IMG/VR virus record: IMGVR_UViG_3300050131_000019
Location: 1 to 64,000 of that record
Strand: one strand, 5' to 3'
Source of the DNA: a virus
DNA length: 64,000 nt
The notes below the pieces were generated by a model. That model was not told the DNA's origin and did not search any database. It saw nothing but the letters and a program-made list of their open reading frames with translations. Position numbers and translations under genes: made by a program. Positions 7,209 to 21,922 of this stretch are shown here, in pieces. Position 1 is the first letter of the stretch. Each line of letters opens with the position of its first letter.

Positions 7209-7214
7209 GATATA

Positions 7215-7307: not shown

Positions 7308-7604
7308 AGAGATATGTAAGGAAGTCGGCTCACAAAGAACGTTCGCCTCCGCGAACGGTGGCCTTCGGCCTTTCGGGTACTGGCACTTAAGCCACCCGGC
7401 GTCTGAGGGGTATTTAAGTTTACATTTTAGCTTATTTACTTATTACGAACGTAGTCGAAGACGAAGTGAGAGCAATTGACGTGGCTTCGCCACAACAGAT
7501 AAAGGGATTACTGCTCTGGCAGAATCCCAAATAAAAGGAAGCTACAACATAAACTCAATCTCTCCCGCTCGCTTCGCTCGGGACCTCAGTAAAGGAAGAT
7601 AGAG
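7308..7604 (+). other. Structured untranslated leader of the GIY-YIG gene
   Basis: No convincing gene. The stretch contains inverted repeats: GTTCGCCTCCGCGAAC, GGTGGC...GCCACC around 7360-7398, GTGGCTTCGCCAC near 7481, and CCCGCTCGCTTCGCTCGGG near 7564. It may be an RNA regulatory leader or an intron remnant; no group I core was recognised. Confidence 0.4.
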
Positions 7605-8009
7605 ATGTTCATATATCTCGCAACTTGTTCCGAAACCGGCAAATACTATGTCGGACAGACCATAAACACCGTGAGCTTTCGGTGGAAACAGCACGTATAC
7701 TCTTCTAAAAGCTATAGGTGTAATACCTTTCTGGGTAGAGCTATACGTAAATACGGAGAGGATAGTTTTAAGCTAGAAACTCTGTGCGAGTGTCCCGACT
7801 CGGAGAGCCTGAATCTCGCGGAGAAGTTTTTCATCTACTTCTTGGGGTCCAAGAAAAAGTCTCTAGGGTATAACCTTACAGAGGGCGGAGATAGTCTTGG
7901 GTCCTACTCGAAAGAACTGGCTACCAAAAAGAACGAGCAGAAGCTACAGGAAAAGAAGTGGTTAAACTACACTCAATTTAAGTATGACTTTAAGAGAAAA
8001 GAGGACTAA
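7605..8009 (+). CDS. GIY-YIG homing endonuclease
   Basis: 134 residues beginning FIYLATCSETGKYYVGQT, the GIY-YIG core, with the downstream R (SFRWKQH) and E (LAEKFFIYFLG) of the family and a terminal YNLTEGG motif. It lies on the plus strand inside an otherwise leftward operon, which marks this block as inserted. Compact, lacking an obvious separate DNA-binding domain. Ribosome site AAGGAAG. Confidence 0.9.
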   Translation: MFIYLATCSETGKYYVGQTINTVSFRWKQHVYSSKSYRCNTFLGRAIRKYGEDSFKLETLCECPDSESLNLAEKFFIYFLGSKKKSLGYNLTEGGDSLGSYSKELATKKNEQKLQEKKWLNYTQFKYDFKRKED

Positions 8010-8314
8010 TGCCCTTCAAACCCGGAGTTAATCCCAATCCCAATAGGCATATCCCTGACCCGGATATCCCTCCCCCAGCCAAAAAGTACCAGCAGAAAAA
8101 ATCTGCCATCAACCGTCTTTTGTCCATAGCCCTGAACATAGCCGAGAACGAGAGTATCGGGGAGGCCCAGAGGCTGGCGGCGGTCAAAATCGGCTCGGAG
8201 TTGTGGAGCAAACGCCCTGCGCCCCGCCGTAAATCGGAAAAGGAGAAGCTGCTCATTAGTGCTTTGCAAGGTTCTAAGCCCAAAAAGAAAGCCCCCGCCG
8301 AGGCAGGAGCTTAG
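8009..8314 (+). CDS. Small basic protein, DUF5681-like N-terminus
   Basis: 101 residues. FKPGVNPNPNRH resembles the FKPGxSGNPxGR opening of DUF5681 proteins. The Pro/Lys-rich body suggests nucleic-acid contact. Its ATG overlaps the GIY-YIG stop by one base, so both move as one unit. Confidence 0.55.
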   Translation: MPFKPGVNPNPNRHIPDPDIPPPAKKYQQKKSAINRLLSIALNIAENESIGEAQRLAAVKIGSELWSKRPAPRRKSEKEKLLISALQGSKPKKKAPAEAGA

Positions 8315-8316
8315 TT

Positions 8317-8336
8317 TTCCATTTTCCGGAATTTTT
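8317..8336 (+). terminator. Weak terminator using the dispersed hairpin
   Basis: TTCCATTTTCCGGAA, a variant of the dispersed 15-mer, followed by TTTTT directly after the plus-strand gene pair. The stem is short, so termination strength is uncertain. Confidence 0.4.
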
Positions 8337-8345
8337 GGTCTGAGG

Positions 8346-8606
8346 CTAGAATGGAATCTCCGTGTCATTTGTTCCAGGATAGTATGGGTCTCCTACTGCT
8401 GTCGAGTAGAATGACTCAACTTTAAAATCACGCATTTTTCCTGCTTTCAAAAGTGCATCGCGTAACAGGTTTGAAATGTCCTGTGGGCTATACCAAGGCT
8501 GCGTGGTGGTTTCATCACCCTCAGTTTCAGTAATAAAGAGAGTTACTTCCCAGTCTTGTTTACGTCGGATTTTACTCACGTCTTTAGCATCCTTTCCAGT
8601 TTCCAA
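8346..8606 (-). CDS. Small hypothetical protein
   Basis: 86 residues with a beta-rich core (WEVTLFITETEG) and QPWYSPQDISNLLRDALL helix. TTG start at 8606 with a poor ribosome site, so the start is uncertain. Not recognised. Confidence 0.55.
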   Translation of the reverse strand: METGKDAKDVSKIRRKQDWEVTLFITETEGDETTTQPWYSPQDISNLLRDALLKAGKMRDFKVESFYSTAVGDPYYPGTNDTEIPF

Positions 8607-8614
8607 TTTGGAAA

Positions 8615-8797
8615 TTAGTCAATCTGTAAGCTAATTTCACTACATTTGTCTTCAAGAATTTCCCGGAGTTCTTTGTCTGTAACCAGCATCATTTCCGGCT
8701 GATCCTCCGGGCTATCCCGATCTGGCAACTCACACACATCCTGGATGATAGATTCGATCCAGTCTTGTACATTGCTCGTAGTTATACCTCTATTCAT
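8615..8797 (-). CDS. Small acidic hypothetical protein
   Basis: 60 residues. ATG at 8797 overlaps the upstream stop as ATGA, implying translational coupling. Acidic helices (DKELREILEDKC). Not recognised. Confidence 0.6.
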   Translation of the reverse strand: MNRGITTSNVQDWIESIIQDVCELPDRDSPEDQPEMMLVTDKELREILEDKCSEISLQID

Positions 8798-8934
8798 TGG
8801 GTCACCGCGTAGCGCGGAACAAAGAAGTTTTCAAGTTGTCCAGTCTTCCGGTTTAGGTTTTGTCGGATACCAAATACGTCGTGGGCAACAAAATGTCCCC
8901 CGTTTGACTCCTCTAAACAATTTGGACACTTCAT
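8794..8934 (-). CDS. 46-residue CxxC protein
   Basis: Opens MKCPNCLEESNGGHF, one CxxC knuckle, ending VPRYAVTQ. ATGA overlaps at both ends with the neighbouring genes support it as real despite its size. Confidence 0.65.
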   Translation of the reverse strand: MKCPNCLEESNGGHFVAHDVFGIRQNLNRKTGQLENFFVPRYAVTQ

Positions 8935-9170
8935 GACGCCTCCTGCCAAATTTCGTGGTTGCTACGTTCGTAGAGATACCCGCACCGGGCCGCTAGAATG
9001 GTCTGGGCATCTTCCGGAAGGGTTGAGTATACCGAGCACCAAGGGAGTTTGTATACGGTGCCCTCTAGGTACTCATTTTCGAGGTAGTCGTATACAGCTT
9101 TGTGGCTTTCTGCCTCATACCTTAGGTAGACATGAAGCAGATCACGGGTTAACGAAACGTAAAACGTCAT
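8931..9170 (-). CDS. Small hypothetical protein under a pseudoknot RNA element
   Basis: 79 residues from MTFYVSLTRDLL. The ATG at 9170 follows AAGGAGG, which is the 3' edge of RNA element copy 1, so translation is likely governed by that structure. Not recognised. Confidence 0.65.
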   Translation of the reverse strand: MTFYVSLTRDLLHVYLRYEAESHKAVYDYLENEYLEGTVYKLPWCSVYSTLPEDAQTILAARCGYLYERSNHEIWQEAS

Positions 9171-9175
9171 ACTTC

Positions 9176-9253
9176 CTCCTTGGATGATTGGTAAACGCAC
9201 ACCGTCGCCTCGTGTAGGCTCATCCTTGACGGCAACCCCGATATTGCTCGGGG
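9176..9253 (-). ncRNA. Pseudoknot leader RNA element, copy 1
   Basis: Minus-strand RNA. Hairpin 1 CCCCGA-GCAATA-TCGGGG (9253-9236), stem 2 GCCGTC/GACGGT enclosing a GCC-TACACGA-GGC hairpin, and pseudoknot GGATGA (9225-9220) with TCATCC (9187-9182), directly followed by AAGGAGG. See the finding on the seven-copy family. Confidence 0.8.
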
Positions 9254-9260
9254 CGGGCAG

Positions 9261-10226
9261 TTAATTCACGTTGTCCAAAACGGTTTCGAGGTCCAAATTT
9301 TTTGAGGCCCACCTATCCACAGAGGCTTCCAGAGGGATACCAAGTTTGCGGCACATCACTGCGATCTGCTGAGCAAACTCCACGGCCACGTTCTTGTCGT
9401 AGTCCCGGCCAAAATCTTCGGCCATAACCTCGGCGGCTAGTGCTCCGGAGAGTTCCGCAAAAATTTTGAATTTCGCCAGTAGCTTTACGGGTGAGTTCTC
9501 TGCGATGCTCTTCTTCTCCTTGGGGGGTTGACCTTGGGCCTCTTCCACCTTTTCCTTGACATCTTTTACTTTCAACTTCTCCCCGGACTTCTCCTTAGCC
9601 TTAATCAGCTTGTCCTGATCGACGGGCTGAAGCTTGGATAGCTGAAGAGCAGCCGATGTGGAAAATTCTCCCTTGCGGAGCTTGTCCTGTGCTTCTGGGG
9701 AGAGTTCCAAGAGCTTCTGGCGCTCCTTGACCCAAGCAACAGCCTTAGCCAGCTTCTCTGGGGTATCCGCTCCGGGGAAGTACTTCTTGGCAATTTCCTC
9801 TACGCCTTTCCCGAACTTGTGTTGGTAGACAGAGATGCAAAAAGCGTCATCGAGGGGGTTCACGTCAGTTCTGTTGCGATTTTCCGCCACGGTAAGGTCA
9901 AGGGCCTCTTCTTCTGACTTTACTGCGGAGTAGTTGAACTTCAGCTTGATCTTCTTAGCCGGGTCTGAAATCGCCCTGTTAAGCTGCACGATAGCCCGGA
10001 GCCTGCGATGCCCGGCAATCAGCACAGGCCACCCTTCCACCGTTTTGCAAGCTATGGCAGCAATGAGTTGACCACGGTGCAGGATATCATCTGCAAGCTC
10101 GGATACGTCTGTCTCTTCACTTCGACCGCTGAGTTCCGGCTTGATGATTACATTTTCAGGGGCAACAACATACCCGCCATTTGCAGTGCGGTCCACTCCA
10201 GCTTCTTTACAGAAAGTTACAGCCAT
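9261..10226 (-). CDS. ParB-like nuclease/DNA-binding domain protein
   Basis: 321 residues. The N-terminal ParB/Srx fold has LIAGHRRLRA (about 68-77) and AENRNRTDVNP (about 113-123). A helix-turn-helix-like segment follows (VEEIAKKYFPG...AKAVAWVKERQKLL), then a Lys/Glu linker (about 215-245) and a helical C-terminus. No partition partner is nearby; phage members may act as transcription or DNA-processing factors. RNA element copy 1 follows its stop. Confidence 0.85.
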   Translation of the reverse strand: MAVTFCKEAGVDRTANGGYVVAPENVIIKPELSGRSEETDVSELADDILHRGQLIAAIACKTVEGWPVLIAGHRRLRAIVQLNRAISDPAKKIKLKFNYSAVKSEEEALDLTVAENRNRTDVNPLDDAFCISVYQHKFGKGVEEIAKKYFPGADTPEKLAKAVAWVKERQKLLELSPEAQDKLRKGEFSTSAALQLSKLQPVDQDKLIKAKEKSGEKLKVKDVKEKVEEAQGQPPKEKKSIAENSPVKLLAKFKIFAELSGALAAEVMAEDFGRDYDKNVAVEFAQQIAVMCRKLGIPLEASVDRWASKNLDLETVLDNVN

Positions 10227-10227
10227 G

Positions 10228-10428
10228 TTATTCCTCCACGGAATCCGACAAATACTTTGTGATGGACCCTACCAAGCTCTCAGCCGGGTCCGAGTTTGAA
10301 ACCTTGAAGCCACTCCCTTTCAAATAAGTATAGACTTGGTGGAAAGCCTCATCTACACTACTTTTAATGAGAGGGTCACTAAGTTCGTACCGCGTGTGCC
10401 AATATCTTCCTTCTGGGGTTATGCTCAT
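10228..10428 (-). CDS. Small hypothetical protein
   Basis: 66 residues, MSITPEGRYWHTRYELSD start, helical middle. ATGA overlap with the upstream gene. Not recognised. Confidence 0.6.
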   Translation of the reverse strand: MSITPEGRYWHTRYELSDPLIKSSVDEAFHQVYTYLKGSGFKVSNSDPAESLVGSITKYLSDSVEE

Positions 10429-10718
10429 TTTTCCCTCGGTAGCGCGGTTTCAGTACGGAAAGGTTCAAAGCTGAGAGACAGGTAGGTGGTATTACCTTCC
10501 CATCGGTCTGTTCGGGCGTGGAATCCCCCGGTACTTACTGACCCGTGTCCCTTGTGCTTCGAGTTAAGTGCGTCTGTGAGAACCGTTCGGGCTGTACTCA
10601 CTAGGTCTTCAAGAGAGGGGGGTCCGTAGAAGTATTGCCAGTCAACGGACTCCATGTAGGCTTTAACCTTGTGGAAGTCAAACTTGTCGAGAGTTTCTTG
10701 AATCACGTTTTGCTTCAT
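10425..10718 (-). CDS. Small conserved phage protein, paralogue of the 4270 gene
   Basis: 97 residues. Shares FDFxKVxAYM, a helical middle and STGGFxAxTD...LSFEPF with the gene at 4270-4587. The ribosome site is GAGGAAAAAAAA-like. Function unknown; two diverged copies in one phage suggest distinct roles. Confidence 0.7.
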   Translation of the reverse strand: MKQNVIQETLDKFDFHKVKAYMESVDWQYFYGPPSLEDLVSTARTVLTDALNSKHKGHGSVSTGGFHARTDRWEGNTTYLSLSFEPFRTETALPREK

Positions 10719-10742
10719 TTTTTTTTCCTCACTTTCAGAGTC

Positions 10743-11015
10743 TCACGAGATTTCGCTCGTGTCAAGAAAATTTTTAATGTCCATCGCATCATATAGATGC
10801 CGCTTTCGCGCCGCAATTTTTTTCGGTAAGAGAATTTTTTCATCTTGCGGCACTCCAGTTTTTCCAAGGTGGAACTTTTTGCACAGCGGACACCTGTAGG
10901 TGTGTAAGAATTCTGCGCCGGGTAACTCTTTTCGGCGCATTTCCAGCATCACACTCTTAGCAAGGTCCTCACTTCTGTATTTCCGTTTTCCGGAAGAGCA
11001 GAGTCTGGATTTCAC
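10743..11015 (-). CDS. Zinc-knuckle protein under pseudoknot RNA copy 2
   Basis: 90 residues, GTG start at 11015 behind AAAGAGGG. YRCPLCKKFHLGKTG is a CxxC-x-H type knuckle common in small phage proteins. The dispersed 15-mer hairpin sequence lies inside its coding region near the start. Confidence 0.7.
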   Translation of the reverse strand: MKSRLCSSGKRKYRSEDLAKSVMLEMRRKELPGAEFLHTYRCPLCKKFHLGKTGVPQDEKILLPKKIAARKRHLYDAMDIKNFLDTSEIS

Positions 11016-11022
11016 AATTTGG

Positions 11023-11103
11023 CCCTCTTTCTAGATCATTGGTAGTTGCACACTCTCGCCGCGTGTAGGCTGATCCGTGAGAGCTACCCCCATACGCTGG
11101 GGG
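11023..11103 (-). ncRNA. Pseudoknot leader RNA element, copy 2
   Basis: Hairpin 1 CCCCCA-GCGTA-TGGGGG (11103-11087) lies inside the last codons of the upstream gene. Stem GCTCTC/GAGAGT encloses GCC-TACACGC-GGC. Pseudoknot GGATCA (11076-11071) with TGATCT (11038-11033), one G-U pair. Confidence 0.75.
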
Positions 11104-11707
11104 CGGGCGGCTGGTAAACAGTTACTGTTGTTCTGGAGTCCTTGGGGGACAAAGCCTTCATTACCTGTGCAATCTGTTCCCTTACTTCGGAAACCTTGCG
11201 GAGGAACAGGTCGTGCCCGAAGTAGGAGGTTTTTGTGAGGTCTGCAAACCACGGAGTTTCTATATCCCACTTTTTGAGGGTACCTATGTAGACGGTAAGG
11301 TCCCTTGTCCTCGGGTCTGTGGTGAGGTCTGTATGGACCAAAAGAAAGGCTGATACTTTGTTCTCTACCCCGTTCCCTGCCCTATTGTGGATTTCGATCA
11401 GGATAAAGGGCGACCCTTTGGGGGCCTCGGAGATAATGCGGAGAACGTCCACATCGTCTTTTGCCGATACGAAACTGTAAGTGTTGGGGGTTTTAGATTT
11501 CACCGGATTCCTCTCTTCGTACTGCTTGTCTGCGGTCTGTCTCGCCTTTAGCTCGTCTGGAGTTTTATTCAGAATCGCGGCGTGGTAAAGATGAACCCAG
11601 TTGTCGTGCGAAACAATTTCTTCCCAACTGTCATTTCCACAATACGCGGCACGATATAGCCGCGCCTTCTCGTATTCTTCGGGGGTGTGCTTTCCAGAAT
11701 AGTTCAT
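11084..11707 (-). CDS. Hypothetical protein of a three-member phage family
   Basis: 207 residues from MNYSGKHTPEEYEK. Its N-terminal 60 residues (EEYEKARLYRAAY...DNWVHLYHAA...TPDELKARQTADK) resemble the genes at 11704 and 28034. A larger C-terminal domain follows (SPFILIEIHNRAG, DLTVYIGTLKKW). ATGA overlap upstream. Confidence 0.65.
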   Translation of the reverse strand: MNYSGKHTPEEYEKARLYRAAYCGNDSWEEIVSHDNWVHLYHAAILNKTPDELKARQTADKQYEERNPVKSKTPNTYSFVSAKDDVDVLRIISEAPKGSPFILIEIHNRAGNGVENKVSAFLLVHTDLTTDPRTRDLTVYIGTLKKWDIETPWFADLTKTSYFGHDLFLRKVSEVREQIAQVMKALSPKDSRTTVTVYQPPAPSVWG

Positions 11708-11910
11708 TTCTTCTCCTTGACAAGTTCTTTGAAAAACTTGTCGGTTAACTCTTTCGCTTTGAGTTCCGTGGGGGTTTTGGCCTGCACGTATAGCTTGTAC
11801 CAGATATCCGCTTCCGTACCCTTCCAAGGTACTTTTCCAAAATTGTACTGGTCAAGCCAAATCTCTTGGTACTTGAGGCCGATTTCGAGTTGCTTCTTGG
11901 TATATTTCAA
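11704..11910 (-). CDS. Small hypothetical protein, TTG start
   Basis: 68 residues. A TTG at 11910 (reading MKYTKKQLEIGLKY) overlaps the upstream stop as TTGA and follows AGGGAAA, matching the N-termini of its relatives at 11084 and 28034. A GTG at 11934 is the longer alternative. Confidence 0.6.
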   Translation of the reverse strand: MKYTKKQLEIGLKYQEIWLDQYNFGKVPWKGTEADIWYKLYVQAKTPTELKAKELTDKFFKELVKEKK

Positions 11911-12101
11911 ATTTTCCCTCCATTCGGTCCACACTTACCGTCGATGTAGTCGAGCCAACGTTTCCTGTTGAAGTTAGGATTCCGGGATTGGCAGAATTCT
12001 GCTAGCTCCCGAACTTCCCCGTTCTTGAAGAGATCAATCCTCCACCGACCTCTGCGGATAACGTTTGCGAGTTCGATAAAGTCCTGATTTGACATACTCA
12101 C
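11907..12101 (-). CDS. Small hypothetical protein
   Basis: 64 residues, basic and Asn/Arg-rich (NPNFNRKRWLDYIDG). Starts at GTG 12101 (GTGA overlap) or ATG 12095, behind GGAGGG. Not recognised. Confidence 0.6.
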   Translation of the reverse strand: MSMSNQDFIELANVIRRGRWRIDLFKNGEVRELAEFCQSRNPNFNRKRWLDYIDGKCGPNGGKI

Positions 12102-12259
12102 GCTCCCTCCAGTGCTTCCTGGATTACTTTTTTGAGTTCTTCCTCATCAAAAACATAAAAGTTGTTCCCTACGTAGGGGTGGACTCTTTCCTCTTGATCC
12201 AAGATTTCCTGCGCGATTTTCTTGGTCAAACGTTCTAAGTTGTTTCCAGTGAATTTCAT
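12098..12259 (-). CDS. Small helical hypothetical protein
   Basis: 53 residues from MKFTGNNLERL behind GAGGAG; ATGA overlap upstream. Amphipathic helices. Not recognised. Confidence 0.6.
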   Translation of the reverse strand: MKFTGNNLERLTKKIAQEILDQEERVHPYVGNNFYVFDEEELKKVIQEALEGA

Positions 12260-12465
12260 TTTCTCCTCCCGTGTACTCCCTTGTTGCAGTGACAAACATC
12301 TGTTATGCCGTGGCTTAAATTCCGTTTTCCGGAACACTTGGCATGATAGTTAGCTTTACAGTAACTACAAGACCCAGATTTCCGGCTAGGTGTAGGGGCT
12401 TCATTTACTGGAAGCCCCAATTTTATGGTCTGATCGATTATCTCAGTTAGCGTTCGGCGTGTCAA
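12256..12465 (-). CDS. Cys/His-rich small protein
   Basis: 69 residues. CSYCKANYHAKCSGKR and CHCNKGVH suggest a zinc-binding cluster. One exact copy of the dispersed 15-mer encodes the GKRN segment. Confidence 0.65.
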   Translation of the reverse strand: MTRRTLTEIIDQTIKLGLPVNEAPTPSRKSGSCSYCKANYHAKCSGKRNLSHGITDVCHCNKGVHGRRK

Positions 12466-12659
12466 GAGGCTTCTCCGTTCAGGACAGCCAAAAGGTTGTT
12501 AAGCAGGTTGTTATCCTCAACAAGATCAGACTTGTGAGATGCAAACTGGAGAGTCTGTTTATTTTCCCAATTCAGACTTCCGGCAAAAGTACAGGGCTGG
12601 ACGGTATATAACAAACTTCCGTCTCGGTACCAAACACCCTCTTTGTAGTCAATTTTCAT
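12462..12659 (-). CDS. Small hypothetical protein under pseudoknot RNA copy 3
   Basis: 65 residues, beta-rich N-terminus then a helical C-terminus ending NNLLAVLNGEAS. The ATG follows AAGGAGG of RNA element copy 3. Not recognised. Confidence 0.6.
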   Translation of the reverse strand: MKIDYKEGVWYRDGSLLYTVQPCTFAGSLNWENKQTLQFASHKSDLVEDNNLLNNLLAVLNGEAS

Positions 12660-12663
12660 ACAC

Positions 12664-12740
12664 CCTCCTTAGACTCTTAGTAGGTGCTCAGCCGCGCCAC
12701 GGGAAGGCGAGTCTTTGCGGCCACCCGGATTTCTCCGGGG
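12664..12740 (-). ncRNA. Pseudoknot leader RNA element, copy 3
   Basis: Hairpin CCCGGA-GAAA-TCCGGG (12739-12724), stem GCCGC/GCGGC enclosing CGCC-TTCCCGT-GGCG, pseudoknot AGACTC (12714-12709) with GAGTCT (12676-12671), then AAGGAGG. Confidence 0.75.
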
Positions 12741-12744
12741 CTAG

Positions 12745-13038
12745 TTACACGAAGGAATACAAGCACTCGAACTCTTCGTCGTAGAGGATTCCGCAGCGGT
12801 GGATGTCAATCAAATCCGCCTCCGTAGCAACTTTTAGGAGTTCCCTTATGTTTGTTTCCAGAAAAATTTCATCGTGCCCGGCATTACTGACCATATCACT
12901 ATTCCCCGGAACCAGTTTATCCAGTAAGAGAAAGCCGTGTAGGTCAGGCCGGTTGCTCAACTTGTTCTCGATACGGTCAAACTTCAAGAACTCGTCGTCG
13001 TGGTCTTTAAAGAATTGGTGTAACTCTTCCTGTTTCAT
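12745..13038 (-). CDS. Conserved phage hypothetical protein
   Basis: 97 residues with DDEFLKFDRIENKLSNRPDL, HDEIFLETN and IHRCGILYDEE, a pattern I recognise from many phage and prophage small proteins of unknown function. TAACATG junction with the upstream reading frame. Confidence 0.7.
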   Translation of the reverse strand: MKQEELHQFFKDHDDEFLKFDRIENKLSNRPDLHGFLLLDKLVPGNSDMVSNAGHDEIFLETNIRELLKVATEADLIDIHRCGILYDEEFECLYSFV

Positions 13039-13039
13039 G

Positions 13040-13240
13040 TTAGCTCCTAATCCAGAAATCTGTATCTCCGAACGACACTAGACTGTAGTCGTACTGAAGT
13101 TCCCTTGCCGCTCTTTCCCAGTCAATGCCGGTATACGGCCAAGAGTTAGATACTTTGTGGTCCAGCATTCCGCAATCCTCGGCTAGCTGCTGCGCGTACT
13201 CTTCAAAGTAGCTGTCCCGGATAAGTGTCTCACCCGAGTC
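13040..13240 (-). pseudogene. C-terminal half of the 13241 gene, beyond an in-frame TAG
   Basis: 66 codons in the same frame as the upstream gene, separated from it only by TAG (13243-13241). It contains TLIRDSYFEEYAQQLAEDCG and WPYTGIDWERAARELQYDYS, conserved features that normally form the C-terminus of one phage/plasmid protein family. No start codon with a ribosome site was seen, so expression would need readthrough of the amber codon. TAG ends many other genes here, so general recoding is excluded. Confidence 0.65.
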
Positions 13241-13537
13241 CTAATCGGAGTAGCCTTCGCACTCTTCAGCCAGTTCCTTGAGAGTCTTGAGTTCTTCCCC
13301 GTCTTCGGACTCGTCCCACTCCTCAAGTTCTTTCTGGGCCGCAGAGAGAGTCTCTCCTAGAGTTTCCAGTTCCTTGGCATCACTCGCCAACACACTGGTA
13401 TCGTCGGTAGCGTCTGTTATGGTTTCTTGCGCCCCGTCAACCGCATCGACCAAGGACTGTCTCTCGGATTCGAGTTCCTCAATCCGCTCGATAACGTCTC
13501 GGCTGTCAATCACGTCGTCAAAGTTACTGATGCTCAT
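13241..13537 (-). CDS. N-terminal part of an amber-interrupted conserved protein
   Basis: 98 residues: IDSRDVIERIEELESERQ then a long acidic coiled-coil-like stretch, ending ELAEECEGYSD-TAG. In relatives known to me the chain continues directly into (L)IRDSYFEEYA; here that continuation follows the TAG in frame. Could be a recent nonsense mutation, leaky readthrough, or a true truncation. Confidence 0.75.
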   Translation of the reverse strand: MSISNFDDVIDSRDVIERIEELESERQSLVDAVDGAQETITDATDDTSVLASDAKELETLGETLSAAQKELEEWDESEDGEELKTLKELAEECEGYSD

Positions 13538-13545
13538 ACGTCCTC

Positions 13546-13899
13546 CTAGACTACCTGTGCAATGGTTGGAAACACGTTTTCTTCGGCTGTCTCACTCAGA
13601 ACGGCAACTATATCTCCCAACACCCGAAAGTTTTCCCCGTATCCGTTGAGACGGTATACTCTCATGTTCACCACGTTTTGGGTGTGTGGGTTGGGGGCCA
13701 ACCCTAAAGAAACGCCGTCTTCGTTTGCATACAACTGTTTGCAATTCCTAATCCCCGGAACCAAGGATTCAATGTAGCCTCCGACAGCTTTCTGAAGCTC
13801 CTTGAAGTCAAACTTCTTTCCGTTTTCCGGTTGGACTTTGATCGTGCGGCCATCTGTCTTGAAGATGTACCCGCGCTGAACTTTCTTTACTGCGGTCAT
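13546..13899 (-). CDS. DUF3846-like phage protein under pseudoknot RNA copy 4
   Basis: 117 residues. FDFKELQKAVGGYIESL, ANEDGVSLGLAPNPHT and VLGDIVAV match the DUF3846 pattern of small phage proteins of unknown function. Translation starts behind GAGGAG at the end of RNA element copy 4. Confidence 0.7.
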   Translation of the reverse strand: MTAVKKVQRGYIFKTDGRTIKVQPENGKKFDFKELQKAVGGYIESLVPGIRNCKQLYANEDGVSLGLAPNPHTQNVVNMRVYRLNGYGENFRVLGDIVAVLSETAEENVFPTIAQVV

Positions 13900-13904
13900 G
13901 TTTT

Positions 13905-13982
13905 CTCCTCGGGTATTTGGTAGTTACGCAGCCACCCCTCGTGCCGGGATACCCTTGTGGCCTGCCGGATAACGCTCCGGCT
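13905..13982 (-). ncRNA. Pseudoknot leader RNA element, copy 4
   Basis: Hairpin GCCGGA-GCGTTA-TCCGGC (13981-13964), stem GCCAC/GTGGC, pseudoknot GGGTAT (13954-13949) with ATACCC (13916-13911). About 75 bases are identical to copy 6 at 17481-17558, pointing to a recent duplication. Confidence 0.8.
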
Positions 13983-13994
13983 AGCGGTTGACTA

Positions 13995-14183
13995 TCATCC
14001 ACACGAAACTAGACTGATGTTTCCATTGTCGTCCGACCCAAAGTTTTCTTTAGCGAAGACAATAGCCTCCTGTTTGGTGGAGAAAATGCCAACATTCCTG
14101 AAAGGTATATCCGGATCACCAAGAGACTCCTCATCGGGGATATCAACGTACCACCGTTTTTCGTAAACGTCAAAATCAGTCAT
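13995..14183 (-). CDS. Small hypothetical protein
   Basis: 62 residues, WYVDIPDEESLGDPDIPF then IFSTKQEAIVFAKENFG, the latter like short phage domains with a conserved helix. Overlaps the upstream gene by 8 bases. Not recognised. Confidence 0.6.
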   Translation of the reverse strand: MTDFDVYEKRWYVDIPDEESLGDPDIPFRNVGIFSTKQEAIVFAKENFGSDDNGNISLVSCG

Positions 14184-14679
14184 CTTCTTCCTCCTCTTCC
14201 GTGTAAGGCGTGAGTGGTGGGTTCTCGGGGACGGCGGAGATTGCTTCCTGCTTTACTGTTTCCAATCCATAAAATCCCCAGCAGGAGTCAACGTCAGTTC
14301 CTTCCCCGTCTTCAATGATAAATCCGTAAACATCCCCAGATAGGTACTGGTTCCAAGTTTCAACCATACCCTCAGCGTATTTCCGGGTATCTGGGGTCTC
14401 GTCGCGCTTGACTACCACGAATCCGATCTGGCCGGAATCAAACCCCATGTAGTAGTGATCCAAGCTGGCTAAGGAAAGATGAACCCCGCCATGAATCAGG
14501 GCTTGCAGGGGGAATACATCATACTCTTCCTCCCACTCTGAAAGATTCTCTCCGATATCCGAGGCGTATTCTCCGTTTGGCCCCTCAACTTCAAAGTAAC
14601 GGTTCCGGGTGGTTACGATAAAGCATTCTTCGTCCCCCTCAAAGGGGCATTCGGCATCAAAGTCTTGCTCAATAGTCAC
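14176..14679 (-). CDS. Conserved phage hypothetical protein
   Basis: 167 acidic residues with DHYYMGFDSGQIGFVVVKRDE and VYGFIIEDGEG...DSCWGFYGLE, a pattern shared by uncharacterised phage proteins. C-terminus EEEEEDD. Overlaps the upstream gene by 4 bases. Confidence 0.65.
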   Translation of the reverse strand: MTIEQDFDAECPFEGDEECFIVTTRNRYFEVEGPNGEYASDIGENLSEWEEEYDVFPLQALIHGGVHLSLASLDHYYMGFDSGQIGFVVVKRDETPDTRKYAEGMVETWNQYLSGDVYGFIIEDGEGTDVDSCWGFYGLETVKQEAISAVPENPPLTPYTEEEEEDD

Positions 14680-14936
14680 TTTGTAGCCATTGTGCGTGAA
14701 GGTTTCGGTTGAGTCGTTTCTCCTACAAGCCTGACTTTCTCCAGCAAACTAGCTGGCACTGAAATTTGGTCCCCGGTCTCCCACTCAACAAACACCAGCA
14801 TCTTGCGCGGGTCCGGGTATACACTCTTACCGTGGAACCCTTCGATCATCCGGCAAACTCCCTTGTTCCCCGGACCTATGCCGGTATAGAAGTCATATCC
14901 GGTAGTCCGAACTACGTCGCCTGCTTGAAATTTCAT
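14676..14936 (-). CDS. Small beta-rich protein (KOW/SH3-like)
   Basis: 86 residues from MKFQAGDVVRTTG behind GGAGG. Pattern F-x-GDxVR...GxKGV...VxWxxGD...VPxxLLEKV resembles small SH3-type barrels. First gene after the promoter at 14982. Confidence 0.6.
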   Translation of the reverse strand: MKFQAGDVVRTTGYDFYTGIGPGNKGVCRMIEGFHGKSVYPDPRKMLVFVEWETGDQISVPASLLEKVRLVGETTQPKPSRTMATK

Positions 14937-14953
14937 AAATCCTCCACTTTTCG

Positions 14954-14982
14954 ATTGTCGCACAAATTTTCAGGTTTGTCAA
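14954..14982 (-). promoter_or_regulatory. Leftward sigma-70 promoter
   Basis: TTGACA (14982-14977), 17 bases, GACAAT (14959-14954), followed by GGAGG and the ATG at 14936. A TGTGGAAAACGTTGCAA box sits just upstream. Confidence 0.75.
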
Positions 14983-15001
14983 ACGTTGTGTTTTCAACGG
15001 T

Positions 15002-15018
15002 TTGCAACGTTTTCCACA
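15002..15018 (-). promoter_or_regulatory. TGTGGAAAACGTTGCAA box, copy A
   Basis: 17-base element about 20 bases upstream of the -35 box, followed by CCGTTGAAAAC. The same box recurs at 17242, 18887 and (opposite orientation) 20377. Likely a regulator-binding site. Confidence 0.6.
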
Positions 15019-15028
15019 GTTTCCACAG

Positions 15029-15043
15029 TTCCGGAAAACGGAA
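15029..15043. repeat. Dispersed 15-mer hairpin
   Basis: Exact TTCCGTTTTCCGGAA (minus strand), immediately after the stop of the gene at 15044. See the finding on this repeat. Confidence 0.7.
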
Positions 15044-15409
15044 TTACCTCGCCCGGTAAACTGGAACCTCCGCCAGTTTGAGACAAAGGGCGGCGGCGAG
15101 GCGATGGTTTCCCTCTAGGTTATCTCCACTTAGAGAGAGAGGATGATCGATTCCGCGCTCCTCTACTTCACTAATAAGCTCCTCTCCGGCAAACTTTTTG
15201 AGTCGTTCGTGGCTCCACCCCCGGAATACCACTGCGGCATTTCGTATTTCTTCGGGGCGCAGATAGACAAATTCCCAATCCGTCTCTCCCCGTTTCTCGT
15301 AGGAATCCAGAAGACAGCGGGCATCGTCGGAACTCTCGGGGTCCGGGATATTCTGCCAAGTACTAAATATGGTCCCCGGCTCTGGATTGTACGGCGATCT
15401 GGGTTTCAT
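15044..15409 (-). CDS. ParB/sulfiredoxin-like small protein
   Basis: 121 residues from MKPRSPYNPEP. The C-terminal SLSGDNLEGNHRLAAALCL...VPVYRAR matches the ligand loop of the ParB-like nuclease fold (GNHRLAAA in place of GHRRL). ATGA overlap with the upstream gene. Confidence 0.7.
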   Translation of the reverse strand: MKPRSPYNPEPGTIFSTWQNIPDPESSDDARCLLDSYEKRGETDWEFVYLRPEEIRNAAVVFRGWSHERLKKFAGEELISEVEERGIDHPLSLSGDNLEGNHRLAAALCLKLAEVPVYRAR

Positions 15410-15978
15410 TCCGCACTCCCTCTGGTATGTACCCAACATACCGCTTGTAGGTCGCGGGGAGAAATTCCCCCTATCCAGCGAGAAGCCTCTTGGTAGCTGG
15501 CTTCCATTTCGAGATACATCCTGCCCCCAATGGCAATAGCTGTACACAAAGGATTCGCCGCTCTAGCGGCCCAAACGTCGATGGTGCATACGTATGAGTT
15601 TCCGGTAATGTTCTTGAAGAATCTTTGTACTTTCAGCCAACGGTTACAGCGAGTACCTGATGTGAAAGTCTTCATCGGGTCTTCCCCGTTAGCAATGTTC
15701 CACGCCTTGTTAATGTTCATGTAGGTTCCGGCCACGCTCGGTATGATTTGTGACCCATTATCCGCCGCCCGGATAATCAACCTAGCCCCTTTCACGTTTG
15801 TTTCCCATGTTTGTCTGGGGGATAGCGCGGCTATTACACCGGCACCCCTGTTAACATCTTTTGGGCAGAGTTCCCTTGCAAGAGATTCTGCGCGGCCATA
15901 CCATTCCCGGCCAGCCCGCAACTCATCTTTACTGGCCGAGGAATAGCATTTGATTATGTTACGGACAAAAGGTTTCAT
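15406..15978 (-). CDS. DUF7178-like / DNA-glycosylase-like phage protein
   Basis: 190 residues from MKPFVRNIIKCY. WYGRAESLARELCP, AGVIAALSPRQTWETNVKGAR, CTIDVWAARAA and ISPRDLQAVCWVHTRG form a signature I associate with phage proteins having a helix-hairpin-helix glycosylase-like fold. Substrate unknown. The ATG overlaps the upstream TAA by one base. Confidence 0.65.
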   Translation of the reverse strand: MKPFVRNIIKCYSSASKDELRAGREWYGRAESLARELCPKDVNRGAGVIAALSPRQTWETNVKGARLIIRAADNGSQIIPSVAGTYMNINKAWNIANGEDPMKTFTSGTRCNRWLKVQRFFKNITGNSYVCTIDVWAARAANPLCTAIAIGGRMYLEMEASYQEASRWIGGISPRDLQAVCWVHTRGSAE

Positions 15979-16187
15979 TACTCCCCCAGAAAGTCTTTGA
16001 CAATTTCCGCAAGCTCTTCCCAAGTGTCTAAGGAGTCTTTGTAGGCCCGTACTGACGCGTCGTTTGCAGAAGTGTGGTGGGGCAGCATGTAGTCTCCGTC
16101 TATCCGAAGTTTGTGCCCATCTTTTCGAGTTACCGTTAGGACGGGCTGATCCCCGTAAATGTTGATTTCTAAATCAAGTTTTGCCAT
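15978..16187 (-). CDS. Small hypothetical protein under pseudoknot RNA copy 5
   Basis: 69 residues; a beta-rich start (LDLEINIYGDQPVLTVTRKDG) then an acidic helix. Preceded by AAAGGAGG of RNA element copy 5. Not recognised. Confidence 0.6.
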   Translation of the reverse strand: MAKLDLEINIYGDQPVLTVTRKDGHKLRIDGDYMLPHHTSANDASVRAYKDSLDTWEELAEIVKDFLGE

Positions 16188-16190
16188 TAT

Positions 16191-16274
16191 TCCTCCTTTG
16201 GAGATTGGCCGGATTGCTCCGTTTCTAGCCCCGCTACGTAGAAGCTCTCCTTGGGGCCACCCCGTAACCGGGGG
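16191..16274 (-). ncRNA. Pseudoknot leader RNA element, copy 5
   Basis: Hairpin CCCCG-GTTA-CGGGG (16273-16260), stem GCCCC/GGGGC, inner hairpin GCTTCTACGTAGC, pseudoknot GGAGA (16250-16246) with TCTCC (16204-16200). The linker carries an extra small hairpin, making this the most diverged copy. Confidence 0.65.
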
Positions 16275-16275
16275 G

Positions 16276-16917
16276 TTAATCCTTATTCCTTTCCCTATTC
16301 ATGCTGTTTACTGCGTCTTCTCCTTCTTGGTCCATTGCACCCCAGAGGATAGTGTCAAACTCTCCGTTGCAGTTACTATCCTCCATGATGTCATATTCGT
16401 TCCACTCTCTTTGTTCGAGGAAAGCATCAATCAGTGTTCTGATCTGGTTGTGGTCCCACTCTGAAACATTTTTGGGCCACTCCGACAGATTTGAAGAGTA
16501 GAAGCTAAGAAATCCATCATAGCTGGTGAATTTCTCTTTAACTACCTTCCGAAGAACTTCTTTATCCGCCCCCGTGTACAATCTCTTTACCGCAGCGGCG
16601 GGTATTGTCAGGAAAATCCGGTCGGTAGCGAAGTTGTATGCTCGGGGGGATTCCAAAGCGTCCCACTTCGCGTTGAGGTCAATCTTCGTCTCATCCTTGA
16701 ACCACGCGCAAAAGTTTTCTGCGTACATTTTGGCATATTCCCTGTACGCCTGCTGCCAGTTGATATGCTCCCACAGTTCGAGCGGCTCACCTTCGGAGTC
16801 TGCCAGAGGAATCTGATCTCCGTGGTCATCTTCGGTTATTTGCTCACAAGCCTTATCTAGCTCAGAATTATGGATAGAGTTGTAGAATCCGGAAAACGGA
16901 ATTGTTGCTGTCGGCAT
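16276..16917 (-). CDS. Conserved phage hypothetical protein
   Basis: 213 residues. IPFSGFYNSIHNSELDKA, the SPRAYNFATDRIFLTIP segment and FTSYDGFLSFYSS make up a family frequent in phage early regions; I recall no established function. One near-exact 15-mer hairpin copy lies in its first codons. Confidence 0.7.
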   Translation of the reverse strand: MPTATIPFSGFYNSIHNSELDKACEQITEDDHGDQIPLADSEGEPLELWEHINWQQAYREYAKMYAENFCAWFKDETKIDLNAKWDALESPRAYNFATDRIFLTIPAAAVKRLYTGADKEVLRKVVKEKFTSYDGFLSFYSSNLSEWPKNVSEWDHNQIRTLIDAFLEQREWNEYDIMEDSNCNGEFDTILWGAMDQEGEDAVNSMNRERNKD

Positions 16918-16925
16918 GATACCTC

Positions 16926-17174
16926 CTACACAAACTCAGTTACGGTTAGTATGTTTTGCAGGAGAACAGACTCCTGCCGGTTATGCGCCTTGATGCTAGA
17001 GGCCACCAGAAGCGCGGTAGGATGAGATATGCCCTCAAGCTCAATTACCAGAGAACCTTCCTCTACCCCTTTCCACGCTCCGGTAGCCTTGTACATCGTG
17101 TAGCCCTCGACTAGCCCGGAGAGAATCTTCTTGATTCCCTTCACATTTTTGCGCTCTGTAAAAATTCTGTACAT
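16926..17174 (-). CDS. Small hypothetical protein
   Basis: 82 residues from MYRIFTERKNVKG behind GGAGG, first gene after the promoter at 17222. The pattern YTMYKATGAWKGVEEGSLVIEL resembles a small beta-barrel common in phages. Function unknown. Confidence 0.65.
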   Translation of the reverse strand: MYRIFTERKNVKGIKKILSGLVEGYTMYKATGAWKGVEEGSLVIELEGISHPTALLVASSIKAHNRQESVLLQNILTVTEFV

Positions 17175-17193
17175 GTTTTCCTCCACTTTTTGA

Positions 17194-17222
17194 ATCGTAC
17201 CTGAAATTTTTAGGTTTGTCAA
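17194..17222 (-). promoter_or_regulatory. Leftward sigma-70 promoter
   Basis: TTGACA (17222-17217), 17 bases, TACGAT (17199-17194). The spacer AACCTAAAAATTTCAGG is similar to that of the promoter at 14982 (AACCTGAAAATTT), and the same upstream box is present. Confidence 0.7.
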
Positions 17223-17241
17223 CCAGCGAAAACAAAAGACT

Positions 17242-17258
17242 TAGCAACGTTTTCCACA
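17242..17258 (-). promoter_or_regulatory. TGTGGAAAACGTTGCTA box, copy B
   Basis: Second copy of the 17-base element, upstream of the 17222 promoter. A further half-like copy (TGTGCAAAACCTTGAAAACC) lies just upstream. Confidence 0.55.
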
Positions 17259-17280
17259 GGTTTTCAAGGTTTTGCACAGG

Positions 17281-17475
17281 CTAGAATTTTCGGGCATCAA
17301 CTATCACGTTGCAGACCGGCTCGGTCCAGAAGCTAAACGTGTAACCACATTCTGGACAATTGTCTGTCCAATACCCCGCAGAGGGGTTGTCATAGAAGTC
17401 CAGCGAAAGACTCTTATCACACGCAGGGCACTTGAAGTTTTCCGTGTTTCCTGCGTTTTCGCCAACTACAATCAT
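17281..17475 (-). CDS. Zinc-ribbon protein under pseudoknot RNA copy 6
   Basis: 64 residues with FKCPACDKSL and DNCPECGYTFSF, two CxxC knuckles of a zinc ribbon. Preceded by GAGGAGG of RNA element copy 6. Confidence 0.7.
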   Translation of the reverse strand: MIVVGENAGNTENFKCPACDKSLSLDFYDNPSAGYWTDNCPECGYTFSFWTEPVCNVIVDARKF

Positions 17476-17480
17476 AAATC

Positions 17481-17558
17481 CTCCTCGGGTATTTGGTAGT
17501 TACGCAGCCACCCCTCGTGCCGGGATACCCTTGTGGCCTGCCGGATAACGCTCCGGCC
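17481..17558 (-). ncRNA. Pseudoknot leader RNA element, copy 6
   Basis: Near-identical to copy 4: hairpin GCCGGA-GCGTTA-TCCGGC (17557-17540), pseudoknot GGGTAT (17530-17525) with ATACCC (17492-17487). It stands before an unrelated gene, so the element moves independently of coding sequence. Confidence 0.8.
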
Positions 17559-17561
17559 CGG

Positions 17562-17666
17562 TTATCGGAGAACTATTGCCAAGATGAGCAAGAGCAAACC
17601 TACAGAAGCTACGAACAGAACAGGAAACCAACTGACTGTTATGGGAGAATTTCTCAGTTTCTTCAT
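17562..17666 (-). CDS. 34-residue single-span membrane peptide
   Basis: MKKLRNSPITVSWFPVLFV then SVGLLLLILAIVLR: one transmembrane segment with a positively charged N-terminus. The ATG directly follows the TAG of another membrane peptide gene. Candidate lysis or envelope peptide; function unknown. Confidence 0.6.
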   Translation of the reverse strand: MKKLRNSPITVSWFPVLFVASVGLLLLILAIVLR

Positions 17667-17789
17667 CTACCACACCTTACTGAGAAAGTGCCAAGCCACT
17701 ATACCAACCACAATCCAGAAGCCAGCACCTAGAATGAATACCGCGCCCCACGCAACAAGAAACTCTGTATTAACCTCCTGTCGTCTCAT
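17667..17789 (-). CDS. 40-residue single-span membrane peptide
   Basis: MRRQEVNTEFLVAWG followed by VFILGAGFWIVVGIVAWHFL, one transmembrane helix. Good GAGGAGG ribosome site; its ATG overlaps the upstream stop (ATGA). It forms a pair with the 34-residue peptide and could be a small holin-like or antiholin-like pair. Confidence 0.6.
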   Translation of the reverse strand: MRRQEVNTEFLVAWGAVFILGAGFWIVVGIVAWHFLSKVW

Positions 17790-17950
17790 ACTTCCTCCTC
17801 GTCAGTCAGTTCCGTTTCTGCGGCAGCACGGAAGGCATCATCGGCTGCACCATAGGCGTCTGATCCTGTCCGGTATATGCAGTTTTGCGCCATTTTTTCA
17901 GACCCAGAAGGGTCTATTACAATGATTTTTACCACCCAAATATCATTCAT
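17786..17950 (-). CDS. Small hypothetical protein under pseudoknot RNA copy 7
   Basis: 54 residues from MNDIWVVKIIVIDPSGSEK behind AAAGGAGG; acidic C-terminus. Coupled by ATGA to the membrane peptide gene. Not recognised. Confidence 0.6.
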   Translation of the reverse strand: MNDIWVVKIIVIDPSGSEKMAQNCIYRTGSDAYGAADDAFRAAAETELTDEEEV

Positions 17951-17953
17951 ACT

Positions 17954-18036
17954 TCCTCCTTTGGGTAATCTGTAAACTCCAACACCCACGCCACTTGACG
18001 GCTTACCCGTGTGGGCTACCAGATTACGGCTCTGGC
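17954..18036 (-). ncRNA. Pseudoknot leader RNA element, copy 7
   Basis: Hairpin CCAGA-GCCGTAA-TCTGG (18035-18019), stem GCCCAC/GTGGGT with inner GCC-GTCAAGT-GGC, pseudoknot GGGTAA (18008-18003) with TTACCC (17968-17963), then AAAGGAGG. Confidence 0.75.
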
Positions 18037-18047
18037 TGGCCGGTAGA

Positions 18048-18581
18048 TTAGAAAGAGTAGTCTTCTGCCTCTGTGCGGGTGAGGAAGAAATGAATTCCGG
18101 AACCACATACTGTCCAACGGTTTTCATTCCAGCCGTTGAGCGGCACTACCGTCTCTCCTTTTCGGTAGGTAATAACCCCGTACTTTCCCCCGCTTTTCGC
18201 TTCTTCGGCCCCCACCACTTCGAGGACTACTGCTTTAGAGCACCGGCACTTGCGCCCCGCCCCGTGGCTTCTCTTAGCGTCTTCTGTGATGAGGAGTTTT
18301 ACCAGAATACCGCCGCTACATTTCTTCCACCCCACGAAAGACCCCTCTTCCGGAAGGAACTGTATCTGTGCTACAGCCCTTTCTGCGTTTTCGGCTCCGG
18401 ACAGGTCGGCTCCGTACAGGTTGGCTCCGTACAGGTTGGCTCCGGACAGGTTGGCTCCGGACAGGTAGGCTCCGTACAGGTTGGCTTTTGCTGCCATCGC
18501 CGCAACAACCAATTCGGTAATTGTCTTAGCGGCCTCAAGAGTAAACAAGACCGCTCCATAAACGTTTTTCAGTTCCATCAC
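18048..18581 (-). CDS. Pentapeptide-repeat protein with DUF5758-like C-terminus
   Basis: 177 residues. About residues 31-62 are tandem pentapeptides (ANLYG, AYLSG, ANLSG, ADLSG), expected to form a short right-handed quadrilateral helix. The C-terminal domain (VKLLITEDAKRS, RKCRCSKAVVLEV, CGSGIHFFLTRTEAEDY) matches the DUF5758-type domain that accompanies such repeats in phages. Role unknown; some pentapeptide proteins mimic DNA, but this repeat is short. The repeats are near-identical in DNA, so expansion is probably recent. Confidence 0.75.
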   Translation of the reverse strand: MMELKNVYGAVLFTLEAAKTITELVVAAMAAKANLYGAYLSGANLSGANLYGANLYGADLSGAENAERAVAQIQFLPEEGSFVGWKKCSGGILVKLLITEDAKRSHGAGRKCRCSKAVVLEVVGAEEAKSGGKYGVITYRKGETVVPLNGWNENRWTVCGSGIHFFLTRTEAEDYSF

Positions 18582-18588
18582 ATCTCCT

Positions 18589-18819
18589 TTACCGTGCTAA
18601 CAAAGCCGCCCATTCGTCCGTATGGAATTTAACCACACGAGCCTGTAAGAACGTTCCGCAGAACTCCAAGGCTGCGGCATGAGTCTTAAAATCTGCCGCG
18701 CTACCGTAGAGGTTACGGGCTTCCACGTACCCACCGTCTTTGTAGATGAGTACACTGTATTCCCCGGAAGTAAATCCGGTGCTAAGGTTGTGCTGTCCTG
18801 CTAACGGTGTTTCTTGCAT
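18589..18819 (-). CDS. Small hypothetical protein
   Basis: 76 residues from MQETPLAGQHNL behind GGAGG. Contains GGYVEARNLYGSAADFKTHAAALEFC. Not recognised. Confidence 0.6.
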   Translation of the reverse strand: MQETPLAGQHNLSTGFTSGEYSVLIYKDGGYVEARNLYGSAADFKTHAAALEFCGTFLQARVVKFHTDEWAALLAR

Positions 18820-18860
18820 AAATCCTCCGATGTTCAAAGCATTTCTGAAACTTTCGTTGT

Positions 18861-18903
18861 TGTCAAATCCGTTTATTTTCAACGGCTTGCAGCGTTTTCC
18901 ACA
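18861..18903 (-). promoter_or_regulatory. Third copy of the upstream box with a TTGACA -35
   Basis: TGTGGAAAACGCTGCAA (18903-18887), CCGTTGAAAATAAACGGA, then TTGACA (18866-18861). The -10 at the expected spacing is weak (AATGCT). Same arrangement as at 14982 and 17222. Confidence 0.5.
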
Positions 18904-18966
18904 GCCCAACGGGGAATATCTCCAACGGTTCCAATCTTCTTCCATACAGGCTGATTTGTCACCCGG

Positions 18967-19176
18967 CTACCTCACTCTCTCATTACAGCGGTTGTAGATT
19001 GGTTCGGAGGCATCCACATACTTCTGGATGGCGGGGGAATACTTCGGCTCCGCCAAGAAGTTTAAGATACGCTGTGCGAAATGCCCTGCGTCTGTTTCCC
19101 CGTCGAGCCACAGGCTAGTTCCATCTTCCCGGACGATCTCAGCACAATTGTAATTGAGGCTTATTGTTCCCTTCAT
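18967..19176 (-). CDS. Small hypothetical protein, paralogue of the 19651 gene
   Basis: 69 residues. MKGTISLNYNCAEIVREDGTSLWLDG and AGHFAQRILNFLAEPK align with the gene at 19651 (MREDGVELSLS, AEYAQAILNFLQEAK). ATGA overlap upstream. Function unknown. Confidence 0.6.
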   Translation of the reverse strand: MKGTISLNYNCAEIVREDGTSLWLDGETDAGHFAQRILNFLAEPKYSPAIQKYVDASEPIYNRCNERVR

Positions 19177-19490
19177 ACTTCCTCCTCATAGTCCAAGTAG
19201 TCCAGATCGTCCCAATAGTCTTTCTCTTGCATCTCCTGATAGTCGCGGCACTCTTTGGTATGAGTGTAAGTCCCGAAGACGTACTCCGGGTCAAACCACA
19301 TACCGGATACCCAAGCATCCTCGCCTTGAATAGTCAACAGTAGATGCTGGTCGTGTCCCGCGCACCCTGGGCAAGAAGAGTATCGCCAGTCCCGCACGGT
19401 AAAAGTCTCTGTTGTGCCGTGTATTGACATGGAGAACCAGCGGTCTCTGTCATTACATACGGTAACCTTGTCTCCGATTCGGAACGTCAT
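19173..19490 (-). CDS. Small conserved hypothetical protein
   Basis: 105 residues, FRIGDKVTVCNDRDR barrel-like start, CPGCAGHDQHLLL zinc-knuckle-like segment, very acidic C-terminus (YWDDLDYLDYEEEV). Overlaps the gene below by 4 bases. Confidence 0.6.
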   Translation of the reverse strand: MTFRIGDKVTVCNDRDRWFSMSIHGTTETFTVRDWRYSSCPGCAGHDQHLLLTIQGEDAWVSGMWFDPEYVFGTYTHTKECRDYQEMQEKDYWDDLDYLDYEEEV

Positions 19491-19654
19491 ATCTCCTCCA
19501 CTCCTTCAATTCTGTCCGGCATAGCATTGCTGTGCATTGCGTAGCCGACACCATACTTGGCCACATATTCTACAGCCGCGCTACCACTTACCGCGCTTAT
19601 CCTGATAGTCTCAGAAAATCCCCGGTAAGAGTAGAACACCCGGTAGTCTTTCAC
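19487..19654 (-). CDS. 55-residue hypothetical protein, GTG start
   Basis: GTG at 19654 behind AGGAGGCC, reading MKDYRVFYSYRGFSETIRI and ending RIEGVEEI. Four-base overlaps with both neighbours (GTGA upstream, ATGA downstream) support it. Not recognised. Confidence 0.6.
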   Translation of the reverse strand: MKDYRVFYSYRGFSETIRISAVSGSAAVEYVAKYGVGYAMHSNAMPDRIEGVEEI

Positions 19655-19857
19655 TTGGCCTCCTGTAAGAAGTTTAGTATGGCCTGGGCGTACTCGGCGG
19701 CATCATACATCCGGGTCTCTTCCCCGATCTGGTCATTACCCTTCCATCGCATGAAAGAGTTCCTCCAGCTAGAGAGGGATAACTCTACCCCATCCTCTCT
19801 CATTACCGACACGGAAGCTACGCCACTTCCTTCGTGTACTATCATTGTCCCTGTCAT
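19651..19857 (-). CDS. Small hypothetical protein, paralogue of the 18967 gene
   Basis: 68 residues with VMREDGVELSLSS and EYAQAILNFLQEAK, related to the 18967 gene. ATG behind GGAGGAATT. Function unknown. Confidence 0.6.
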   Translation of the reverse strand: MTGTMIVHEGSGVASVSVMREDGVELSLSSWRNSFMRWKGNDQIGEETRMYDAAEYAQAILNFLQEAK

Positions 19858-21832: not shown

Positions 21833-21922
21833 AAGACTCCAATGGGCTTGGATTGAATGGGCTTGTAACCATTCCGCCGCATTAACAGGGTAGCCGTTTA
21901 GCTTGCCCTGCTACTCTGCGAG

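Follow-up and report, generated by a model that had tools for sequence, protein, structure and literature searches.

The first 64,000 nucleotides (nt) of a 77,775-bp phage record (IMG/VR record IMGVR_UViG_3300050131_000019; this whole stretch is referred to here as the window) contain seven copies of a small structured RNA element between genes, which we interpret as minimal self-cleaving ribozymes of the hepatitis delta virus (HDV)-like class (drz). Each forms part of a cassette in which the stop codon of one gene is followed by a GC-rich hairpin, the predicted cut site, the ribozyme, a Shine-Dalgarno sequence (SD) and the start codon of the next gene. Judged from sequence, the assignment of the elements to this class, with cleavage predicted, seems close to certain, and we put the probability that self-cutting HDV-like ribozymes between genes explain the cassette as a whole at about 85%. 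This interpretation builds on structure, covariation, active-site conservation, position and recurrence.

All seven copies lie on the minus strand, upstream of minus-strand open reading frames (ORFs), and each sits between an upstream stop codon and the next SD (coordinates throughout are those of the plus strand). The initial annotation had reported seven repeats of a pseudoknot in front of small, unrelated genes, and a covariance model built from a curated alignment recovers exactly these seven in the whole record, with E-values from 3e-20 to 1e-8. Copies 4 and 6 share an identical block of 77 nt that starts with the first base of hairpin 1 and runs through the SD (13905..13981 and 17481..17557), and their flanks differ; there are therefore six independent sequences rather than seven, and a block ending exactly at the hairpin and the SD implies that hairpin, ribozyme and SD travel as one cassette. 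Read along the RNA, hairpin 1 is followed by stem A; a joint of 2 nt then leads to the pseudoknot's 5' strand and to a hairpin of 3 bp with a loop of 7 nt. After these come stem A's 3' strand, a linker and, directly before the SD as had been described, the pseudoknot's 3' strand. Pairs were counted in the curated alignment of the six distinct window sequences, with an extra hairpin of copy 5 excised. All four helices described at the outset, pseudoknot and hairpin 1 included, were borne out: standard pairs fill 122 of 122 pair cells, and 15 of 21 pairs are changed on both sides. This level of pairing and covariation was reached by 0 of 500 shuffled controls, and partners slid out of register paired in 33-47% of cells.

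HDV-like ribozymes have the strand order P1-J1/2-P2-P3-P1'-J-P2'. The element has the same order, which leads to three testable predictions: a G.U pair closing P1, an additional helix P1.1, and a C opening J4/2. The G1.U wobble closes P1 at the predicted cut in all seven window copies, and in 24/24 distinct rows of a wider alignment. P1.1, in which positions 2 and 3 of loop L3 pair with the two nucleotides after P1, is formed in 11 of 12 cells, variously as A-U, U-A, G-C and C-G (slid controls, 14-58%). The base opening J4/2 (CNRA, before P2') is a C in every window copy (CCAA, CTAA or CAGA; 7/7). The initial description had overlooked this fifth helix, and also that the closing pair and the C ahead of P2' are invariant. 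In copy 5 the linker contains an additional GNRA-type hairpin (CGGA-GCAA-TCCG), exactly where P4 would be expected. The pairs of the double-nested P1/P2/P3 pseudoknot form in all window copies with strong covariation; with P1.1 added, 99% of cells are paired and 13 of 17 pairs doubly changed, a value that no shuffle equalled (0/500). Hairpin 1 stops 1-2 nt short of the predicted cut. It is real and covarying, as claimed, but would belong to the other RNA piece, since it lies upstream of the cut.

The closest published counterpart is drz-Mtgn-1, a minimal metagenomic HDV-like ribozyme whose sequence is printed in PMC10879173. Like the window elements, it is a double-nested pseudoknot without P4, with a 6-bp P1 containing a G.U pair, a 2-nt J1/2, a 7-nt L3 and CNRA in J4/2, and its L3 matches that of copy 3 (TTCCCGT) letter for letter. 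When drz-Mtgn-1 and four copies from other phages were added to the alignment, 99.5% of cells paired and 14 of 17 pairs covaried; the G1.U pair and the C of CNRA were present in all 11 rows, and the layout was shared. Scanning the elements against Rfam gave no match at gathering level, none at E ≤ 5 that is plausibly this element, and no cis-regulatory family, and we rejected a riboswitch or other Rfam regulatory family on this basis. The earlier remark that the element is not recognisable as a known riboswitch class agrees with Rfam, which returns no significant match; the fold, however, is that of a known minimal HDV-like self-cleaving ribozyme.

Copy 1 (model match 9174-9253) has its ribozyme core, from P1 to P2', at 9182..9233, with the predicted cut at 9234/9233 and the catalytic C at 9191; both structure and model match support it. 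Its hairpin 1, on the 5' side of the cut, spans 9235..9254, folds at -13.1 kcal/mol and covaries between copies. Downstream lies a 79-residue ORF without a Pfam family (8931..9170), and upstream an ORF of the ParB type with a helix-turn-helix (9261..10226), both on the minus strand. The core of copy 2 (match 11025-11103) is at 11033..11084, with C 11042, and its predicted hairpin at 11086..11104. For copy 3 (match 12663-12739) the core is 12671..12722, the C is 12680, and the predicted hairpin, with a GAAA loop, is 12724..12739. Copies 4 and 6 (matches 13903-13981 and 17479-17557) have cores at 13911..13962 and 17487..17538, with C 13920 and C 17496. Copy 5 (match 16191-16272) has its P4-bearing core at 16200..16258, C 16208 and a predicted hairpin at 16260..16273; in copy 7 (match 17955-18036) the core is 17963..18016, with C 17972, CAGA and a single P1.1 pair, and the predicted hairpin is 18018..18036. 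Elsewhere in the window, four plus-strand ORFs resemble homing endonucleases (GIY-YIG or LAGLIDADG) by eye (7605-8009, 46272-47102, 48264-49016 and 59915-60805), and the DNA polymerase A gene (174-3194, minus strand) has a long insert that looks intein-like by eye (CFGEDTMV ... VHNC).

The element recurs in other virus records. Searching with a pattern based on copies 1-4 turned up the core in further viral contigs, several of which look like transfer RNA (tRNA) arrays; in L017 a tRNA directly precedes the ribozyme copy, and these tRNA-array copies look like theta ribozymes in the sense of PMC10879173. Two identical theta-type cores also lie about 140 bp apart on the plus strand of L019 (2119-2203 and 2280-2344), and the same pair occurs in L023, L025 and L027. 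An SD-anchored pattern scan returned 8 stretches against 9 for a non-C control, with P1 and P2 formed only in a near-identical phage contig; it was therefore replaced by a second scan with a structural filter, which found the complete cassette in other phages and was followed by covariance searches of whole records. A structural-only scan with loose rules was dropped after hundreds of chance matches, and pattern hits in the bacterial contigs L028 and L029 gave no significant covariance-model match. Another record, G001 (IMGVR_UViG_3300050020_000030), seemed to lack the element despite an identical terminase; we rejected this case, as it is the same phage with a record that does not include window positions 5,170-23,059. 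The two records share 54.7 kb at 99.998% identity; because they overlap at both ends, the complete genome must be longer than each of them.

In total, the cassette of stop codon, hairpin, drz, SD and start codon is present in eight other virus records with up to seven copies each, all records being metagenomic and incomplete. G030 has seven copies, within 3.9 kb on one strand; G021 has three, G020 and G022 two each, and G024, G025, G028 and G029 one each. Some proteins are common to the window phage and G020, G021, G022 and G028, next to none to it and G030, and none to it and the examined stretches of G024, G025 and G029. Together with the window phage, 24 copies representing 23 distinct ribozymes could be parsed; the catalytic C and the G.U pair, both of which the parser favours, are present in 23/23, and two P1.1 pairs in 21/23. 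An SD-like motif follows P2' within 20 nt in all 23, and a hairpin ends 0-3 nt before the predicted cut in 21, compared with 4.5 expected from shuffles. Where a stop codon was found, it lies 7-36 nt ahead of the predicted cut in all cases but one (73 nt, in G024), and the distance from the end of P2' to the start codon is 9-17 nt in almost every copy, a single value of 0 reflecting a TTG ahead of the likely ATG. A structural descriptor that did not require an SD and allowed any base at the catalytic position, applied to 1.41 Mb of sequence, gave 25 distinct matches. All 25 have C at that position and 19 have an SD plus start; four of the other six are tRNA-array copies. Allowing P4 in the descriptor produced two matches with T at the catalytic position, whereas the stricter version produced none.

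Evidence for selection comes from G020, a relative whose DNA polymerase is 62% identical. The G020 copies at 46730-46808 and 48268-48348 correspond in position to copies 1 and 2 of the window: the former comes after a homologue of the gene upstream of copy 1, and the latter lies between homologues of both genes that flank copy 2. The proteins flanking these homologous copies are about 43-55% identical. Comparing P1, P2 and P1.1 between the two window copies and their counterparts revealed 12 double changes that are compensatory and one single change; no pair is broken.

Intergenic places of this kind are also occupied by ribozymes with an unrelated fold and active site. In the window, a Twister-P5 ribozyme (RF02684) at 21857..21920 on the minus strand scores 51.6 bits in Rfam against a cut-off of 37.6; a stop codon precedes it by 2 nt, and an ATG follows 24 nt downstream, with GGAG in between. 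Positions 1-20000 of G021, the phage with three minimal HDV-like cassettes, contain a Twister-P5 (12627-12685), a sub-threshold twister-P1 (RF03160; 11857-11919) and a sub-threshold HDV ribozyme with P4 (9607-9681), all on the minus strand and all between genes. G022 has a Twister-P5 with a hairpin in front of it, as well as a P4-bearing HDV-like ribozyme, and both lie ahead of a start codon. The G022 match at 20987-21067 could not be parsed as a minimal ribozyme and scores 39.8 bits in Rfam, just under the cut-off; inspection by eye and Rfam both identify it as HDV-like with P4, within this type of cassette. That differently folded ribozymes occupy one kind of place argues that the cutting itself is selected. 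Positions 1-20000 of G022 also hold more than 20 tRNAs (3050-9305) and a permuted transfer-messenger RNA (8831-9017; RF04321, 94 bits), all on the minus strand.

Several points weigh against our interpretation. The Rfam models HDV-F-prausnitzii (RF02682) and HDV_ribozyme (RF00094) both align over the full core of copy 3 but score it at 19 and 17.5 bits, far under their cut-offs of 44 and 50, which are library thresholds and not biochemical definitions; compared with these families, the window copies have shorter helices and, except for copy 5, no P4. Nested minimum-energy folds are unreliable for P1 (9 of 24), as expected for a pseudoknot, and give no support. Two relatives have no hairpin abutting the cut, and the conservation of C among the relatives is somewhat biased, because these were found in part by pattern scans that fixed the C and much of the core; in the window copies it is free of such selection bias, and less strictly so in the covariance-model finds. 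In copy 2, the TAG stop codon of the upstream ORF (11084-11086, minus strand) spans the predicted cut (TA|G), so that the cut RNA would lose its stop. Finally, we infer cleavage itself, with the cut sites predicted by homology.

On the reading of the initial annotation, the element would be a non-cleaving pseudoknot that responds to a ligand, a protein or the ribosome and thereby governs how the gene downstream is translated. The closeness of P2' to the start codon, with the SD right after it, would suit such a switch, but the SD is unpaired within the element, and the invariant G1.U pair, the C of CNRA, the covariation of P1.1, the P4 of copy 5 and the hairpin abutting the cut would all be left unexplained. 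A responsive module of this kind is not needed to account for the element, and we regard it as very improbable. Control of translation after cleavage is a separate matter, as the folded 5' leader may have such an effect. It is also conceivable that the ribozymes are regulated. Either translation of the upstream gene or a bound factor would then compete with cleavage, making the ribozymes switches instead of constitutive cutters. The short and similar distances from stop codon to cut in nearly all copies, and the stop codon spanning the cut in copy 2, are in keeping with this; the distance nonetheless varies, up to the outlier in G024, and theta ribozymes that were tested cleave in vitro with Mg2+ alone (PMC10879173). 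We consider regulated cutting unlikely, although less so than any other rival weighed here.

A further explanation is that the elements are of theta type and either selfish or remnants, spread through phage genomes by copying and merely tolerated between genes, with cleavage of no use to the phage. The exact and recent duplication seen in copies 4 and 6 and the presence of the same core in the tRNA arrays of other phages speak for it. Against it stand the compensatory evolution at two homologous places between diverged flanking proteins, the constancy of the cassette, and the occurrence of an unrelated ribozyme class in comparable positions, which together make it distinctly unlikely.

Three good sigma-70-like promoters lie on the minus strand: TTGACA-17-GATAAT (12437..12465) upstream of copy 2's operon, TTGACA-17-GACAAT (14954..14982) upstream of copies 4 and 3, and TTGACA-17-TACGAT (17194..17222) upstream of copy 5, although promoter-like sites overall are no commoner than in shuffles. 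No convincing minus-strand terminator was seen between 8.4 and 22 kb; given promoters and no such terminator, the ribozymes are probably inside transcribed units. As the operon is transcribed, the ribozyme would fold and cut 5' of G1, 1-2 nt past the hairpin. The upstream message would be left with a stable GC-rich hairpin at its end and a 2',3'-cyclic phosphate, and the downstream message would carry a 5'-OH and start in a compact double pseudoknot, the last strand of which lies just before a free SD. A polycistronic phage mRNA could in this way be split into shorter messages with defined, nuclease-resistant ends, and genes served by one promoter could be kept at different, uncoupled levels. 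We favour such mRNA segmentation as the probable main role.

Theta ribozymes of gut phages, which like the window elements are carried by tailed phages, are named for their frequent association with tRNAs; for those without a tRNA, function was left open, and most non-coding ones are more than 200 nt from an annotated ORF (PMC10879173). The window copies differ in being directly flanked by a stop codon plus hairpin upstream and by an SD downstream, and in being many per phage. The tRNA-associated theta ribozymes are recognised by a cut within 5 nt of a tRNA 3' end; by this measure the window copies fall outside the group, the window's only tRNA being at 3205-3278 and the copies following a stop codon and hairpin. 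An RNA ligase (PF09414), of a kind that PMC10879173 reports to be enriched, was looked for here and not found. Phage transcripts with several self-cleaving ribozymes set around short blocks of genes are also known from the tandem hammerheads that flank prophage genes, and the same general idea of mRNA cutting has been proposed for them (Perreault et al. 2011, PMC3088659). They are another ribozyme class, and the passages of that paper considered here describe no fixed arrangement of hairpin, ribozyme and SD. BLASTN among deposited phages gave no convincing match, and a literature search of open-access papers found no description of the stop-hairpin-drz-SD cassette. The ribozyme class, its minimal phage form and the suggestion of mRNA cutting for another phage ribozyme class are already known; what is new is that the cassette is stereotyped, is present in multiple copies within a genome and recurs in several phages, and that HDV-like ribozymes lacking a tRNA gain a plausible role.

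More broadly, we see an even chance that some environmental phages practise a general, protein-free maturation of mRNA with interchangeable ribozymes (HDV-like with or without P4, and twister), in which a cassette could be copied before any gene and would set both the 3' end of the preceding message and the 5' end of the following one. As Rfam thresholds miss the minimal copies, such elements are probably under-counted. The cassettes would be ready-made natural insulator parts, and they offer a concrete role for the tRNA-less HDV-like ribozymes of phages, in which mRNA ends would be made by a ribozyme instead of by host RNases.

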